NCBI RefSeq assembly: GCF_900636475.1
Contig: NZ_LR134283.1
Location: 1,240,001-1,304,000 of the forward strand
DNA length: 64,000 bases
Source of the DNA: Streptococcus anginosus
GTDB taxonomy: Bacteria > Bacillota > Bacilli > Lactobacillales > Streptococcaceae
Direction of reading: 5' to 3'
The notes below the pieces were generated by a model, which was not told the origin of the DNA, did no database searches, and saw nothing but the letters and a program-made list of their open reading frames with translations. Position 1 is the stretch's first letter, and every line of letters begins with the position of its first letter. This document shows positions 56,033 through 63,988 of the stretch, one piece after another. Both the position numbers and the translations under genes were made by a program.

Positions 56033-56854
56033 TCATTTAAATCTTATCTTTTTATACACTTTTAATCCTATAAATAACAAAGTAAACAAGCAGACTGCAA
56101 CAAACGGTGCTACCAGAATTGGGGTTACCTGAGTTGCTTCAGCCGTGACAGCCACTTTATGGTTAGAAGCATTAGCGACACGGTGCCCACGCACCAACAG
56201 CCGATGACTATTGACACCATAGGGGGTACAAGTTACTAACGTGCAATAGTCTTCACCCTCACGAATTCCCAAAGCCGACACATCATCTGGTTCCACCACT
56301 AAAATCTGATCCACTTCATAAGTCAGCGTTTCATTTAGTACATGAAGCATAAAGGTATCACCGACATCTAAGCGGTCAATATCTGTGAATAACTTAGCAG
56401 AAGGTAATCCCCTATGTCCAGATATGACAGAATGCGTGCTTTTCCCACCAACAGGCAAGGAGGTCCCAGCAATATGTCCAATGGCTACTTGTAAAACCGC
56501 ATCATCCGTACCATGATAGATTGGCATAGTGGAATGAACCTTCGGAATATCCACATACCCCATAACACCTGTCGAAGTAACATCTAGCAACTGATTGTAT
56601 TCAGAAGTTTGGGCTTGGGTCAGATTAAAATCAACTTTCTTCTCATTCGCTAATTTCTCATTATATTGTTTTGCATCTTTCAGTAATTTTTGATATGTTT
56701 CTTCTTTTAAATTAGTCGTTTTTTCCACATAACTAGCCACCGCTTCTGACTGATGCAGCGAATTCCAATAATCACTCACGGTTGGATACAGCAGTAAAGA
56801 CAACCCTATTACTAGTAATCCAACCAAAACGATTGTAGAAAAATGTTTTCTCAT
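56033..56854 (-). CDS. srtC: Class C (pilus) sortase
   Basis: A transpeptidase that links pilin subunits through their sorting signals. The 273-aa protein has an N-terminal membrane helix (TIVLVGLLVIGLSLLLYP), the lid region, catalytic His in HSVISGHRGLP, catalytic Cys in DYCTLVTCTPYGVNSHRLLVRGHR (TLVTC motif and Arg) and a C-terminal membrane helix typical of class C. The ATG at 56854 has GTAAGGAGAG upstream; the open frame to 56902 is rejected. It is the last gene of the pilus operon and the only sortase gene seen here. Confidence 0.94.
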   Translation of the reverse strand: MRKHFSTIVLVGLLVIGLSLLLYPTVSDYWNSLHQSEAVASYVEKTTNLKEETYQKLLKDAKQYNEKLANEKKVDFNLTQAQTSEYNQLLDVTSTGVMGYVDIPKVHSTMPIYHGTDDAVLQVAIGHIAGTSLPVGGKSTHSVISGHRGLPSAKLFTDIDRLDVGDTFMLHVLNETLTYEVDQILVVEPDDVSALGIREGEDYCTLVTCTPYGVNSHRLLVRGHRVANASNHKVAVTAEATQVTPILVAPFVAVCLFTLLFIGLKVYKKIRFK

Positions 56855-56935
56855 CAATAGAGCTCTCCTTACTGTTGAAAAGGAAAGGAGATAGGTTTTC
56901 ACTTATCTCCCATCTTTCAACAAAATGTTTTCATC

Positions 56936-58378
56936 TTATTTTGTTTCCATACGTTTTTTTGTTACTAGAAGAATTCCAGCACCAACAACTAAAATGCTAC
57001 CAGCAAGATAAAGCAAAGTTGTCCCAATACCACCAGTGTTAGGCAACAGAGAACCTTTTTTGTTGACAACATCTGTTGTCAATGAACCAGCATTAACATC
57101 TTTTTCAAATTTAATTTCGCCAGAAACCTTTTCACCGTTAAGGTCAGTTAATTTAGGCATATCTGATTCTGTTTCATGAGAGGCAGTTACTTTAAATGTA
57201 ATTGGCGCAATTGAATTGTATCCAGCAGGAGTTTCTGTTTCAGTTAATCTGTATTCCCCGTCATCTAAACCTTTAAACTCAAATTTTGAACCTGCAGTCG
57301 TAGAAACGGTTGCCACTTCTTTATAGGAACCATTGACAAGTTTTTTCTCAAGTTTAAATTTAGCACCTGCCAATGGTTTTTTATCTTGGTCAACTTTATT
57401 TACTACTACTTTATAAGTAAAGACGATAACAGTATCTTTTGGAGTTTCTCCTTTAGGTGAATTTTCACCATTACCAGTATAGTTAGGGTTATTTGAGTAT
57501 TCTAAATGGACTGTGTTAGGGTTTCCTGCTGAGCCTATTACAGCATGTTCATTTAGAGTTGCTGTATATTCTACAACAACCTTTGTAGTTGCTGTAACAC
57601 CACTCAATGATTTTAGATTATTAATTTTATAGCTAGAGCCATTATCAGCAATCGTAAATGAGCTAGTAACATCCGTTTTTACACCATTATTTACAAGATA
57701 GACCTTTGCATCTTTATTATAAGTCAAACCGGCAGATAATGTATCTTTGAATTCAAGATAATATTCTTTATAAGAATCAAAATTACTTGGAAGTGTAGCT
57801 GTTAATTTGAAAGGAACTTTATCATTGATATCATGGTCAGCTGAATCTTGCCAGTCAGACATTTCTGAATCTGTTGAGTCATTAATATCTTTTACCTTTT
57901 TCTCAACTTTTGGAACACTTGATTTTGTATTTACACTAACATTTTTTACAACTTCCATAATAAATGAAGTATAAGCACCATCCTTAGGTACAGTATTATC
58001 CTTATCTTTTACAAGATAGTAACCTGCTTCAAGACCAGTAATTTTCCCATTTGCATAATTACCAGATGTAGTTGTAGAAAGATGTTTACCAGCTTCTGCT
58101 GCAAATGATTTAGCATCAGCATCTGTTTTTAGAGTAGCTGCAATATCCGATGCTGTACTTTTACTATTATAGTTGAATGGTGTCACACCATTCCCCCATT
58201 GGATATTTGAAAGGGTGTCACCTGACAAATCCCCTTTAAAGATTTGGTAGGCTTCATAAGTGTGGCCTGTCGTATCACCGTTAATCGTGATTGTATAAGT
58301 ATCAGCTAATGCCTTACTGCCTGTAAAAGCTAGGAAGACCGCGACAAAGGTTGCTAGAATAAACCTTAATTTCTTCAT
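56936..58378 (-). CDS. Major pilin (backbone subunit), LPNTG-anchored
   Basis: The 480-aa fimbrial protein has a signal peptide (cleavage near SKALA-DTY). It contains an N-terminal domain (about 26-165), a pilin-motif Lys in SSVPKVEKKVKD near 160-170, an isopeptide-forming middle domain, a Cna-B-like domain (FTYKVVVNKVDQDKKPLAGAKFKLEKK), and an E-box YRLTETETPAGYN near 390. The sorting signal LPNTG lies at 445-449, followed by a membrane helix and KKRMETK. SrtC would join the pilin Lys of one subunit to the Thr of the next. A perfect palindrome sits in the gap before this gene, which could set its level relative to the tip. Confidence 0.93.
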   Translation of the reverse strand: MKKLRFILATFVAVFLAFTGSKALADTYTITINGDTTGHTYEAYQIFKGDLSGDTLSNIQWGNGVTPFNYNSKSTASDIAATLKTDADAKSFAAEAGKHLSTTTSGNYANGKITGLEAGYYLVKDKDNTVPKDGAYTSFIMEVVKNVSVNTKSSVPKVEKKVKDINDSTDSEMSDWQDSADHDINDKVPFKLTATLPSNFDSYKEYYLEFKDTLSAGLTYNKDAKVYLVNNGVKTDVTSSFTIADNGSSYKINNLKSLSGVTATTKVVVEYTATLNEHAVIGSAGNPNTVHLEYSNNPNYTGNGENSPKGETPKDTVIVFTYKVVVNKVDQDKKPLAGAKFKLEKKLVNGSYKEVATVSTTAGSKFEFKGLDDGEYRLTETETPAGYNSIAPITFKVTASHETESDMPKLTDLNGEKVSGEIKFEKDVNAGSLTTDVVNKKGSLLPNTGGIGTTLLYLAGSILVVGAGILLVTKKRMETK

Positions 58379-58516: not shown

Positions 58517-61500
58517 TTATAGCTCACTTTTTCTGTATCGTTGATAGGATTTATAAATCAACAGCGAACTTGAGAGCAAAGTAACGGCAATACCCATTCC
58601 GATTAGTAAGCGCAAGCCTGGACCACCTGTTTTTGGAAGTACATACGCTTTTTGCTTTTTATTCGTAATAGTAATCGTTCCTGATGCCATTGGCGAAGTC
58701 GTAGAATAACTGGTATCATAACCTTCCACTTTTTCTTCAACCACTTTATATGTGTAAGTGACTTTTTGACCTTGGTTATTGACTCCCGCAGTCGGTAAAT
58801 TATCAAAAGTATGAGTCCAATTGCTTGCTTTTGTAATTATCTGTGTGTGAAGTACCACTTCTTCTGACTTTTCACCTTGGCTTGCATTTTCTTTAGTAGC
58901 TATCTGAATAAGCTTAACAGTAATCGAACCATCCGCACGATCAGTTTGAACACCCTCTGCTGTCAGCCATTTTTTATCAACCTTGATAGAAGTGGTCTTA
59001 GGAAGAGGTGTATTCGGTACATATTCACTCTTACTTTGCTTAGCAAGATTGACAACCTCTGCACTTGTGATGGCTCCCATATTAGAAGGCAATGTATCTA
59101 ATTGTGAGAAATAGAAATAATATTTTGTTCGCTTGGATTCCTCAGGAAGTTCATAACCATTAGGAGCTTTTGTTTCAATAGCATAATATAGCTTATTATC
59201 TTCTAATGCTTGACTACCTGTAATGGCATTTTTACTATTTTTAGTAATAGAGAACTTGCCACTTGCATCCGTTTTATAGGTTGCAACAACTTTATTCGTA
59301 ATATTTTCTCTTATTTCAAAAGTTGCTTCTGGTAAGATAATTCCAAAGTTGTTGACGTCTACTTTAGTGATATTATAGGCTTTATCCGATACAATCGTAC
59401 CGCCGGCTTTTATCTTCTCCCATTTATAATCTACTTTATTTTCTGTTTTACCCGTCTTGAGGCCTTCAATAACAGCTGTATTTGTAACATTGAGTTGTGC
59501 TTCATTATTTGAAGTAACTTCGCGAGAAACAGCATATTTATATTCGAGTGTATATTTTTTAAAGTTAGGAACTTTCACTTTTAAAACACTCTTATATAAG
59601 CCAGAAGAATCTTTTGTTTTTTCAACAGTCCATGACCATTTAGATTTATCAACCTCATGTCCATTTTCGTCTTTTAAAACTACTGAAGATTGAACTAGAT
59701 CATAACTTAATTTTGTTGGGAGATCTTCTTGATAAGTTAAGGTATCCGTCAGGGTATAATGGTCTTTACCCGCAGCTAAATCCTTTCCTTCTGGATTAAG
59801 CACCAAACTATATTCAAGTTGACGAGCAGTATTATTCCACTTACCACTTTTACTCAATTTTTGACCCGGTCTAACCGTAATATTTTGAGTATGCTCTGCT
59901 TCACCGGAAGGCTTACCATCTATTGAAGCAGAAGCTTTATTTGTATAAGTCTTCTTGACATTCTCATCTAAAGGATCAGCATCCGACTTAAACTTGAAAC
60001 GAGCATACAGAGCGCCTGTATCTTTCAAAGCCTGCTTAAGCGTTTTGCCATTCTTTGCTGTAAAAGTAACTGTCACAACACCGTTTGAAATCGTACCCTG
60101 AACATCCACATCAGCTCCATACTGACCTGTGTAATATTGGTTTTGTAATTTAATCTCTGTATCTGTGACTGTGAATACTCCACTATCAATACCATAGATA
60201 GAATTACCATATTCAAAACCTGTCAATTTTAAACCAGCAGGCGGTGTATCTGTAATTGTGACTGAATGAGCATCATCGTTGACTTTAACCTTAACAACCC
60301 AGTCTATTGTTCCATCTTTTTGAATTTCATGTTGGGTTGTATTTTTATCAAATTCATTTGCAGTGCCATCCCATACTTGGTTGTTGCCATCCATTTTAAA
60401 GACTTTGCCAGATTCTTCATATTTATATTTTGCTTCACTAGAAAATCCTCCCGAGGAGATAGTATTCGCAAAAGAAACGATATTGGAAATGTTAATTGTT
60501 GACTTATATTCTAACGTAACATTATTTTTACTTTTGTATTCTTTTAACAATTTGAATTTGAATTGTTTATACGTTTTATTATTATCAATTTGATTGTAGT
60601 TGACATACTGCCAATTTGAATTTCCTGATTCCATTATTTGAAGTTCAAAATTATCTTTACCAAAGATCGTTTCTAGTTTCTTATGGATTTCATCTAATTG
60701 CTCTTTTGTAAAATAATGTTCTCCATTATTTGTGCCATTCTGACCTTTTAATACATCTTCAAATTCAGTTCCTTGTGGCAACTTGCCATCTCCAGGCATA
60801 GTGATAATGGATTTCCAAGTTAATTCTTTAATGTTAGCTTGAGGAGTTGACTCCATCTTTTCAAATTTCTTGCCTAAACCACCTGTCTTCCCTTTCCCTG
60901 TATCTACGGTCGTTTCAGTTGATGAGGAATCACCACCGTCTGTGACAGTCACTTTATTTTTAACCTTGGTATTTCCAGCATTCCAATTCTCTGGTTGCTT
61001 CCCAGCATCCGTTGTATAAGTAATAGTGTATTTCTGCGTATTTTTACCATTTTGTACAGCTGTAAATTTATAGCCATCGCTTGTTTTTTCAAAGCCATTA
61101 TTTGGTGTAATGGTGACATCACTGGCTTTAGCCAGCATTTCATCTTTTAAGACTGCTCCAGCAATATCATTATGATTTTCATTAACTGTAATAGTCCACT
61201 TAATCTTATTCGTATCTTTATTATATTGACCAGATTTACTAATCTTATTTCTGTGAAGATTGAGCCAAGTTTCTGTATGTGAATGCGGTACATTCGGCGT
61301 TTCCACATCAATCTTATTATTGACAGCAAAGTCCTTACCTGCAGGGAAATTGCTGACTTTATATCGATAAGTAATGGTATAGGCTTGCTTAGCAGACAAC
61401 TTAGGCAAAGTCACATTAAAAGACTTATTATCAGCACCTTTATTAACAGTATAACCTGTTATCGTCTGTTTATTAGTACCTTCTTCACCATACCAACCAG

Positions 61501-62962
61501 AATAGTCTTTCCGCTCAACTTTAACAACATCAAGTGGTTCAAGTGTCAAACCGTTTGCTGTAATATTATCCGAAACTTTAACGGTATCTTTTGTTCCCTT
61601 GTCAGACCAAACGGTTACTGTATAATCAAGGTAGGCAGTATCTCCATCATAAGTAACTTTACCAGTCTTTTGACTATGAATATCATACTGTTCTTGGTGA
61701 GGCTCCTCATGCTTATCAATATCTTTTGACGGGATAGTAATTTTCACTTTATCCGTAAAAGGAATTTCATAATTCCCGTTTTCTTTCTTCCATTTCTCAC
61801 CAATGCTAGCTGAAAAATTCAATTGTCCTGTAGAATCTGTATTTGGAGTTAGTTCATTTACATAGCTATCCAAGAAAGTAATAGCCATATATTTCTTGCC
61901 ATTAACAGTTACAACTTTAAATTTATAAGCTTCTTTTCCACTATCTTTGTCATATCCTGTATATTCTTGATTTTCATATAAACCAGAACCTAAACTTACA
62001 TTATCTGGTAATTGGAAAGCATAATTTTTATTTTTTACTAAATCAGTTTGAGAGATTTTAAATCCCAAATTCAAACTAGCTTCTAATATTTTTGATGAAG
62101 CGGTATAAGTAGCTTTCCCAGTATAACTTCCATCTGTCAAATAACTTGTAAAATCAGCATAATTCACACCTGCAATCGTATACGTCGAAAACTTATCTGA
62201 TTTAAATTCGACACCCGTCACATCTCCTGATTGGGTTTCGTTAATGGTGGTATCAGCCTTTTTGGTTAGGTCTTCTACTTGGTTTACGTCGTTGTCTTTG
62301 AAGTGATACAATTTCCATTCGGAATGCAAACGGTCATCTGAAACGGTATTTTTAAAGGTCATGGATACCGATACTTCTTTGTTTGGTTCCACTTCTGTAC
62401 CAGCTTCATTGACAAAGGAAATATCATATGAATGAGCCACTGTTAAAGTTTGACGTTTTTCACTCAAGACTTCTTTGATTTTGTTATCAATAGCCGTCGT
62501 ATTTGAAATGGGTGTTACCTTTAACGTCACTTTTTCTGAAAAAGTATTCTCTGGATAGCTGGCTTTCACAATAACATTGCCAGACTCGGCCGTTTGCTCG
62601 CCAGCTTCTTTGGCAACGGAAGTCTCAGCCTCTTTAGGAGTCTCCGGTGCAACAGATGGCTTCGTTTCCTGAGCATTTGTATCCGTAGTAGGTTTATCTT
62701 CCTCACTACTTGGTTTGCTTACAGGAGATTCCACCGAGCTTGAGCTAGTTTTGCTTGTATCAGTCAGACTAGAAACAGGTTCTTCTTGAGATTGAATGAC
62801 TGATGAGCTAGTTGAATTACTAACTGTAATAGCTGGTAAAATCAAGGCATAAGTCGTGATAAATACTACAATGAGAGACAAAGCTAAGACTAGCTTTGAC
62901 AACCGTCTAGCCCGCATCCTTTCTCTGACAAGAAAGGCTAATTTCCTCCATAACTTCTTCAT
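58517..62962 (-). CDS. Large pilus-associated adhesin, LPKTG-anchored
   Basis: The 1481-aa protein has an N-terminal export signal or helix (KLVLALSLIVVFITTYALILPAI, about 23-45). A Ser/Thr/Pro/Glu-rich segment runs to about 130. Many isopeptide-type beta-sandwich domains follow, then two Cna-B-like domains near the C terminus (ITKVDVNNFGIILPEATFEI with YYAIETKAPNGYEL; IKVDKKWLTAEG with YKVVEEKVEGYDTSY). The sorting signal LPKTG is at 1442-1446, followed by a membrane helix and a basic tail. Size, position before the backbone pilin and sorting signal indicate the tip/ancillary adhesin. It begins 14 bp after the signal peptidase gene. The receptor is unknown. Confidence 0.9.
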   Translation of the reverse strand: MKKLWRKLAFLVRERMRARRLSKLVLALSLIVVFITTYALILPAITVSNSTSSSVIQSQEEPVSSLTDTSKTSSSSVESPVSKPSSEEDKPTTDTNAQETKPSVAPETPKEAETSVAKEAGEQTAESGNVIVKASYPENTFSEKVTLKVTPISNTTAIDNKIKEVLSEKRQTLTVAHSYDISFVNEAGTEVEPNKEVSVSMTFKNTVSDDRLHSEWKLYHFKDNDVNQVEDLTKKADTTINETQSGDVTGVEFKSDKFSTYTIAGVNYADFTSYLTDGSYTGKATYTASSKILEASLNLGFKISQTDLVKNKNYAFQLPDNVSLGSGLYENQEYTGYDKDSGKEAYKFKVVTVNGKKYMAITFLDSYVNELTPNTDSTGQLNFSASIGEKWKKENGNYEIPFTDKVKITIPSKDIDKHEEPHQEQYDIHSQKTGKVTYDGDTAYLDYTVTVWSDKGTKDTVKVSDNITANGLTLEPLDVVKVERKDYSGWYGEEGTNKQTITGYTVNKGADNKSFNVTLPKLSAKQAYTITYRYKVSNFPAGKDFAVNNKIDVETPNVPHSHTETWLNLHRNKISKSGQYNKDTNKIKWTITVNENHNDIAGAVLKDEMLAKASDVTITPNNGFEKTSDGYKFTAVQNGKNTQKYTITYTTDAGKQPENWNAGNTKVKNKVTVTDGGDSSSTETTVDTGKGKTGGLGKKFEKMESTPQANIKELTWKSIITMPGDGKLPQGTEFEDVLKGQNGTNNGEHYFTKEQLDEIHKKLETIFGKDNFELQIMESGNSNWQYVNYNQIDNNKTYKQFKFKLLKEYKSKNNVTLEYKSTINISNIVSFANTISSGGFSSEAKYKYEESGKVFKMDGNNQVWDGTANEFDKNTTQHEIQKDGTIDWVVKVKVNDDAHSVTITDTPPAGLKLTGFEYGNSIYGIDSGVFTVTDTEIKLQNQYYTGQYGADVDVQGTISNGVVTVTFTAKNGKTLKQALKDTGALYARFKFKSDADPLDENVKKTYTNKASASIDGKPSGEAEHTQNITVRPGQKLSKSGKWNNTARQLEYSLVLNPEGKDLAAGKDHYTLTDTLTYQEDLPTKLSYDLVQSSVVLKDENGHEVDKSKWSWTVEKTKDSSGLYKSVLKVKVPNFKKYTLEYKYAVSREVTSNNEAQLNVTNTAVIEGLKTGKTENKVDYKWEKIKAGGTIVSDKAYNITKVDVNNFGIILPEATFEIRENITNKVVATYKTDASGKFSITKNSKNAITGSQALEDNKLYYAIETKAPNGYELPEESKRTKYYFYFSQLDTLPSNMGAITSAEVVNLAKQSKSEYVPNTPLPKTTSIKVDKKWLTAEGVQTDRADGSITVKLIQIATKENASQGEKSEEVVLHTQIITKASNWTHTFDNLPTAGVNNQGQKVTYTYKVVEEKVEGYDTSYSTTSPMASGTITITNKKQKAYVLPKTGGPGLRLLIGMGIAVTLLSSSLLIYKSYQRYRKSEL

Positions 62963-62976
62963 GTTTATTCCTCCAT

Positions 62977-63570
62977 TTAAAATGTTCCAAATCTATTTAA
63001 AGGCCATATTCGTACGCTTAATTTTCCTACAATCTGGTCTTGGTCAACAGGGCCAACTGCTGTATTTCGGGAATCAACCGAAACGCTTCGATGGTCCCCC
63101 ATTACAAAAACTTTTTCATCAGGCACTTGATAAGGTAATTTAATATTGGTATTTCCAAAGGATTTTTCTTTTAAATACGGTTCATCTAATTTCTTACCAT
63201 TTACCGTGACATTGCCTTTTTTATCCACATCTACCCATTCTCCAGAAGTAGCAATAACCCGTTTCACTAAAACTTTATTGTTATAGTAGAATGCCACAAC
63301 ATCTCCATGCTTTAAATCACGCGCATTGACTGAGACAACGACATCGCCTGATTTTAAAGTAGGCGTCATAGAATTTCCGTAGATTTGCAAAACTGGGAGC
63401 CAAATAGTAGCGACCAAAATCGCAACAGCAGAGACCGTCACCAGAGTAAAAATTGTACTTTTTAAAGTTCTTTTATAGCGGTCTCGATATTTTGTTGCCT
63501 TTAATTCTTGCTCAAGTGTCGCCACATCGGGCAAATCTTCAATGTTAAACTTTTTTGCTTCTTTCATCAT
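62977..63570 (-). CDS. sipA: Pilus-locus type I signal peptidase
   Basis: The 197-aa protein has one N-terminal membrane segment (about 43-68), catalytic Ser in IYGNSMTPTLKSGD and catalytic Lys in VLVKRVIATSGE, plus the MGDHRSVSVDSRN box. Signal-peptidase-like SipA proteins are required for assembly of several streptococcal pili; some lack catalytic residues, but this one keeps both. It lies between a truncated coiled-coil gene and the adhesin in one operon. Confidence 0.92.
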   Translation of the reverse strand: MMKEAKKFNIEDLPDVATLEQELKATKYRDRYKRTLKSTIFTLVTVSAVAILVATIWLPVLQIYGNSMTPTLKSGDVVVSVNARDLKHGDVVAFYYNNKVLVKRVIATSGEWVDVDKKGNVTVNGKKLDEPYLKEKSFGNTNIKLPYQVPDEKVFVMGDHRSVSVDSRNTAVGPVDQDQIVGKLSVRIWPLNRFGTF

Positions 63571-63577
63571 TCCCTGT

Positions 63578-63877
63578 TTATTTGTTCTCGTCTATTTTCA
63601 TAGCTTGGGCGGATTGCTGCTGCAATAATTCTTGCTCCATGCGTTTAATATTTTCTAAATATTAATCCGCAGTTGCTTGTGCTGTTTCAAAGAGTTTATT
63701 TAACGCAATAGAAGCGTCTGCGATAGAACCTGCTTTTTCTACCAAGATCTTCCGACTGTTCAATTCAGCTTGCAGTTTCTGAACCTGTTGGCGCAGTTGT
63801 TCATTTTCCTTGGCTTGAGTAACAAGTAATTCCAACAAATCTACTCGTCGTAACTTTCTTAATTCTTTTTGCTCCAA
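63578..63877 (-). pseudogene. Small coiled-coil protein gene at head of pilus operon, interrupted by TAA
   Basis: From a TTG start at 63877 (AAAGGAGGGTGAAAG upstream) 71 codons encode a heptad-rich protein (LLELLVTQAKENEQLRQQVQKLQAELNSRKILVEKAG). TAA at 63662-63664 then follows ATAD. The same frame continues as YLENIKRMEQELLQQQSAQAMKIDENK to a second TAA at 63578-63580, 7 bp before sipA. Related proteins beside streptococcal sortase loci are about 95-110 aa and continue through ADxYLxNI. A CAA-to-TAA change (or readthrough) therefore seems likely. The function is unknown; the truncated 71-aa form may still be made. Confidence 0.72.
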
Positions 63878-63955
63878 CTTTCACCCTCCTTTCGCTTATC
63901 AGTCAAATTAAATGACAACTATTTTATTTTCTGCACGACTGAGCCCCACAATCTC

Positions 63956-63988
63956 ATTATATATATATATATATATATATATTGTCAA
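63956..63988 (-). promoter_or_regulatory. Pilus operon promoter with TA-repeat spacer (candidate phase-variable switch)
   Basis: On the minus strand, consensus -35 TTGACA (63983-63988) and consensus -10 TATAAT (63956-63961) are separated by 21 bp consisting entirely of alternating A and T. The expected start is near 63950, giving a leader of about 70 nt before the TTG start at 63877. It is the only evident promoter upstream of the operon inside the window. A 17-bp spacing is optimal, so loss of two TA units would give an ideal promoter. Confidence 0.82.
63958..63982. repeat. TA dinucleotide microsatellite
   Basis: Twenty-five uninterrupted alternating T/A bases (about 12 TA units). Tracts of this length are prone to slipped-strand mispairing. 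Confidence 0.97.

Follow-up and report, generated by a model that had tools for sequence, protein, structure and literature searches.

Switching of transcription by changes in the length of the spacer between the −35 and −10 hexamers is well known in Neisseria and Haemophilus, whereas the streptococcal repeat switches considered here work otherwise. In the parts of the published accounts available to us, on which all statements about cited systems are based, the hifA/hifB region of Haemophilus influenzae carries (TA)9-11, whose length was proposed to alter the −10/−35 spacing (PMC2651432); ten repeats are cited as the best number and nine or eleven as poor (PMC11709252). In Streptococcus gallolyticus, pil1 and pil3 undergo phase variation by GCAGA leader repeats and attenuation (PMC3894217). 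The AT tracts of S. pneumoniae spxA1-tenA range from 10 to 38 bp among 33,625 genomes, 93.3% being at 18 bp (PMC11709252), and the intergenic T tract of S. pyogenes Spy1336/R28-Spy1337 sets the level of a surface-protein transcript (PMC7098570). The S. suis srtF cluster consists of a signal peptidase, an ancillary pilin, a major pilin and a class C sortase (PMC2797073). Here we report on a 64,000-nucleotide stretch of the S. anginosus genome (GCF_900636475.1, contig NZ_LR134283.1, positions 1,240,001 to 1,304,000; hereafter the window), in which the whole −35/−10 spacer of a promoter ahead of a sortase pilus operon is made of TA repeats, and on a class of such promoters in the genus.

Direct reading of the minus strand revealed a perfect −35 hexamer, TTGACA (63988-63983), and a perfect −10 hexamer, TATAAT (63961-63956), separated by a spacer of exactly 21 bp (63982-63962) that is pure (AT)10A, ATATATATATATATATATATA. 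When the first −10 bases are counted, the AT run is unbroken over 25 bp (63958-63982). The first-pass annotation had described two consensus hexamers with a 21-bp all-TA spacer, and our reading of 63988-63956 confirmed this. The tract is a simple repeat situated between −35 and −10, as in the hif type. The sequence TATATATATATA is present in a single copy, at this promoter, and no second copy was found in the 1,953,654-bp genome; among the 30 perfect TTGACA-N9-25-TATAAT sites of this genome, the pilus promoter is the only one with an AT-tract spacer. A ribosome-binding site, AAAGGAGGGTG, lies downstream at 63882-63892 on the same strand.

Promoters recognised by sigma-70/A perform best near 17-bp spacing, and for this reason the 21-bp allele is expected to be poor and a 17-bp allele strong. 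The present spacer is two repeat units away from 17 bp, which puts the optimum within reach of slippage. We consider it likely that the TA-microsatellite spacer slips, alters the promoter spacing and in this way switches the pilus operon. The element would be a housekeeping (sigma-A) promoter with a TA microsatellite as its entire spacer, in which replication slippage would gain or lose 2-bp units and shift the distance between the two perfect hexamers. At about 17 bp (possibly 15–19 bp) the pilus operon would be well transcribed, at the 21 bp of the assembled allele it would be weak or off, and cells within one clone would differ at random in piliation. The design recurs with varying repeat numbers ahead of other streptococcal genes and for that reason is probably a random on/off switch; in this we infer both the variation of the pilus promoter within the species and the setting of transcription by spacing.

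We searched 284 genomes of the genus, one genome per species, for AT tracts that end in TATAAT and have TTGAC at promoter distance; where a tract is interrupted, as in S. ovuberis, this pattern misses it. TA-spacer promoters were found as 57 matches in 43 of the 284 genomes, with TTGACA in full at 54 of them. The reversed pattern gave no match in the same genomes, and a displaced control with TTGAC 34–50 bp off gave one, as did that control reversed. Since 57 matches lay at promoter distance and one elsewhere, the placement of the TA tracts at promoter distance is not neutral. When 157 of the genus genomes were sampled evenly, TTGAC stood at promoter distance for 38 of 63 AT tracts ending in TATAAT. 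Of the other 25 tracts, 24 were read: 21 had no −35 box within one mismatch, two had a one-mismatch TTGATA with spacers of 8 and 20 bp, and one (L282) was a lipoprotein-group promoter cut by a contig end. The 25th, in G016, had a 25-bp spacer, just beyond the search range. A sample of 348 genomes across the taxonomic class gave matches in 3 of 22 Streptococcus genomes and nowhere else, so the uninterrupted-tract pattern had no match in 326 genomes from 133 other genera. Separately, several other genus genomes (L268, L269, L271-L279, L284) contained many AT tracts after GC, an apparent dispersed repeat without a −35 box.

Fifty-eight distinct promoters were compared, that is, the 57 matches plus L008, L054 and L057, minus L056 and L192, whose flanks are identical to those of a partner and which each have the partner's spacer length. 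The spacers measured 9 bp (1 promoter), 11 (6), 13 (9), 14 (2), 15 (13), 17 (7), 18 (1), 19 (11), 21 (5), 23 (1) and 25 bp (2). Ordinary TTGACA/TATAAT pairs in three genomes peaked at 17 bp (35/94), whereas the TA promoters did not. Spacers of 16–18 bp were found in 8 of the 58 TA promoters versus 52 of the 94 other pairs (Fisher 2e-7), a comparison in which the sites are not independent, kinship is uncorrected, and the 94 exclude four TA-spacer sites and include one poly-G spacer, within-gene sites and two overlapping pairs. The spacer length was odd in 55 of the 58 promoters, and 20 of 22 left-flank words occurred with odd spacers only. Because the parity is odd, a spacer that gains or loses whole units can arrive at 17 bp. 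The first-pass annotation had placed an allele 4 bp shorter than the present one near the optimum, and such an allele is attainable, being two units from 21 bp.

Comparison of relatives revealed that spacer length changes readily. Where nucleotide identity was 95% or more, the spacer differed in 11 of 12 pairs, and where it was 85% or more, in 34 of 38; the pairs have members in common and are thus not independent, one of the 12 comes from a doubtful 50-aa frame, and the counts restore the dropped rows (L055/L056, 91% identical; L191/L192, 100% identical and from the same assembly). The 5′ leaders were gap-free in all 11 differing pairs of the closer set. Examples include spacers of 19 versus 17 bp at 99.6% identity, of 19, 15 and 13 bp at about 99%, and of 23 versus 21 bp at 98.4%.

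A further set of spacers was read upstream of a 233-aa protein, whose orthologue group comprises 15 close loci. Twelve of them had spacers of 5, 7, 7, 11, 11, 12, 12, 13, 15, 21, 21 and 23 bp with conserved leaders behind them, and three had no such promoter. Both 12-bp spacers, L211 (G283) and L214 (G285), are interrupted tracts; their equal length would fit the idea that interrupted tracts no longer slip, although these are two cases only. Close upstream of distant homologues of the 233-aa protein (L227, L228, L229, L231), too, TTGACA and TATAAT flank a short TA spacer. Viral contigs yielded 25 pattern matches, six of them with a frame with a ribosome-binding-like site within 250 nt, and no copy of the pilus promoter. 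In one metagenome viral lineage (L243, L249, L251, L259) three contigs had a 13-bp spacer and the fourth an 11-bp one, within surroundings that are 98–99% identical.

The repeat unit itself was found to be exchanged in one family. The gene of an LPXTG surface protein in G006 has a 19-bp TA spacer, and for a homologue, 59% identical, the spacer is a poly-G one both in G014 (22 bp with 14 G, L285:942-975) and in G277 (17 bp with 9 G, L287). Of 11 genomes searched, four had poly-G spacer promoters and none had the reversed pattern. The other two, also between perfect hexamers, stand ahead of a membrane-protein-like frame in G108 (L286) and of a gene recognised by eye as sugar-nucleotide epimerase-like in G282 (L289). 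Selection for switching would be expected to keep a slippery repeat in the spacer and to tolerate a change of its unit, as far as one family can suggest it.

A reading frame starts 27–60 nt past the −10 box with a ribosome-binding-like site in 47 of the 58 TA promoters, a site that was itself a criterion when the start codon was chosen. Thirty downstream proteins were scanned, and 14 had no Pfam match. Matches were obtained to DUF4352 (3), PASTA (2), TM2 (2) and glycosyltransferase family 2 (2), and once each to DUF4839, DUF4230, DUF697, the YSIRK signal and the LPXTG anchor; a CD20-like family was below the cut-off in two proteins. Many genes behind TA-spacer promoters serve the cell envelope. 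We lean, with some reserve, towards a genus-wide phasome in which TA and sometimes poly-G spacers, placed exactly between sigma-A hexamers, would each act as a random transcription switch whose position is kept and whose unit is replaceable. With the same reserve, this phasome may be taken to cover pilus, LPXTG, YSIRK, DUF4352-family and other envelope genes, and it was unseen in the other genera sampled. The class of repeat-spacer promoters with fast-changing length is a stronger finding than the pilus case.

At the studied locus, the promoter is followed by genes for a surface structure, as in the hif type. Pilin and class C sortase matches confirmed the pilus operon that had been proposed downstream. 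Its first open reading frame (ORF; 63662-63877, minus strand, as are the genes that follow) has a TTG start behind the ribosome-binding site, 78 nt past the −10 box. It encodes 71 aa, appears coiled-coil-like by eye, has no Pfam or NCBIfam match and ends at an in-frame stop, after which the frame is open again across 63578-63661. Next come a signal peptidase I-like protein (sipA/sipF-like, 197 aa; 62977-63570; PF10502, TIGR02227), a 1481-aa putative ancillary pilin with a C-terminal LPKTG (58517-62962), a major pilin of 480 aa with isopeptide-forming and SpaA domains and an LPNTG anchor (56936-58378; PF16569, PF17802, PF00746, TIGR04226), and a class C (pilin) sortase of 289 aa (56033-56902; NF033745). 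The 1481-aa protein had no Pfam or NCBIfam match and was assigned by its place and anchor motif; with that assignment, the order is the srtF-like one of signal peptidase, ancillary pilin, major pilin and class C sortase. These four pilus genes all have open frames. For this operon, pil1-type attenuation found no support, as the leader contains one GCAGA and not an array, and no terminator-like site was found from the promoter to the sip gene. Past the window end (L001:11458-12370) there is a transporter gene, weakly auxin-efflux-carrier-like and apparently broken, which is spread over two ORFs (101 and 234 aa) that overlap.

Other pilus loci were surveyed in the 700 bp upstream of each of 40 SipA-type loci of the genus. 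A TA spacer was found in two, the studied locus and that of S. ovuberis; the latter has a 15-bp spacer with an interrupted tract, ATATATATACATATA. The S. ovuberis operon is at a different chromosomal place, near infB and rbfA as recognised by eye, and a related ORF of 88 aa (L057, L074) takes the position equivalent to that of the first ORF. None of 80 named loci, which overlap the 40 and include clostridia, had an uninterrupted AT run of at least five units within 700 bp upstream, a count that interrupted tracts could escape. By these two counts, pilus loci do not in general carry the TA tract. A DNA comparison with 1101 bp gave five diverged sip-gene matches, the rest being short.

Several observations weigh against a spacer switch at the pilus operon. 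The scarcity of the tract among SipA-type loci is one, and another is that none of the 15 loci of the 233-aa group is at 16–18 bp, which speaks against a simple picture of mostly 'on' alleles among genomes. Short spacers of 5–13 bp are common in the class, and the 17-bp optimum accounts for them merely as 'off' alleles. A candidate second promoter, TTGACG-17-TATGAT, lies farther upstream, at about 190 bp from the TA promoter, and could also drive the operon; promoter-like sites in the upstream region were no more frequent than in shuffles (9 versus 9.9). Lastly, in the sole measured streptococcal case that we found, the AT region of spxA1-tenA, whose natural lengths span the range given above, alters expression just 1.5–1.6 fold (PMC11709252). 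The same figure, the predominance in the class of spacers other than 17 bp, and the fact that in long TA tracts a TATATA with 17-bp spacing is available as a second-best −10 would suit a graded tuning, in which a flexible, easily melted or supercoiling-sensitive TA spacer causes small expression shifts, perhaps via a bound protein. We regard such tuning as unlikely, because the spxA1-tenA tract is described as upstream of its promoter in a TTTRC/CRTTT palindrome, whereas the pilus tract is the exact spacer between perfect hexamers and belongs to a class with a parity bias.

Less probable still is the view of the tract as a microsatellite in a promoter that is neutral or in decay, with the operon driven from elsewhere or hardly at all. 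The candidate upstream promoter, the interrupted first ORF and the lack of the tract in 38 of the 40 pilus loci agree with such decay, but the hexamers are perfect, a ribosome-binding site stands downstream of them, the four pilus genes are open, and the class-wide placement at promoter distance is unlike that of neutral repeats. Dinucleotide runs are prone to sequencing error, and one assembly of the species was read; the 21-bp length might then be an artefact of sequencing or assembly, hiding a fixed spacer of about 17 bp. This we think very improbable, since the same type of tract recurs with unequal lengths across many independent assemblies, and the viral lineage has spacers of 11 and 13 bp at one site in nearly identical surroundings, although its sequences, too, come from assemblies. 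The switching of the pilus operon by spacer slippage, the idea of the first-pass annotation, is the reading that we prefer. It gained from the parity that lets 17 bp be reached, from the variation of relatives at other TA promoters, and from the exchange of repeat type at one surface-protein promoter; for the pilus operon itself it stays a likely reading.

The first-pass annotation knew of no such switch described for a streptococcal pilus. As regards the exact design on a pilus this held within the literature searched, but pil1 and pil3 pili are known to vary by GCAGA repeats and an effect of the spxA1-tenA AT region is known. No such streptococcal promoter was found in the available parts of a 2025 review of phase variation (PMC11868660), and apart from the spxA1-tenA AT region none with a TA spacer was found in the titles and abstract openings of the openly licensed literature, with subscription journals outside this scope. 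The class is easily scored in public genomes, so that heterogeneity of pili and surface proteins may be predictable from repeat counts, and it raises the question of why it is present in Streptococcus when no member was found in the 133 other genera sampled.

The gene order of the pilus operon corresponds to that of S. suis srtF, whose description, in its available parts, mentions neither a TA promoter nor phase variation (PMC2797073). The R28 T tract is likewise a simple intergenic repeat near a surface-protein gene; unlike the TA spacer, it is a homopolymer, and was proposed to alter activator sites or their spacing (PMC7098570). The spxA1-tenA region, like the pilus promoter, is a streptococcal promoter region with a tract of AT dinucleotides; its own tract is of variable length, has a measured expression effect and belongs to a toxin-antitoxin operon (PMC11709252). 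Its TTTRC-ATn-CRTTT palindrome is absent at the pilus tract, which is flanked by TTGACA and TATAATGAG. In S. gallolyticus pil1 and pil3, short repeats also precede a streptococcal pilus operon and slip, as we infer for the TA tract; there, the GCAGA repeats lie in a leader-peptide ORF and act through transcription attenuation, whereas here promoter spacing would be altered (PMC3894217). The model for the mechanism is hif, in which a TA tract is the proposed changer of −10/−35 spacing and pili are controlled (PMC2651432). The hif region, however, is common to two divergently oriented fimbrial genes of a Gram-negative bacterium, whereas the S. anginosus tract forms one promoter, precedes a sortase-built pilus and is a member of a genus-wide set.
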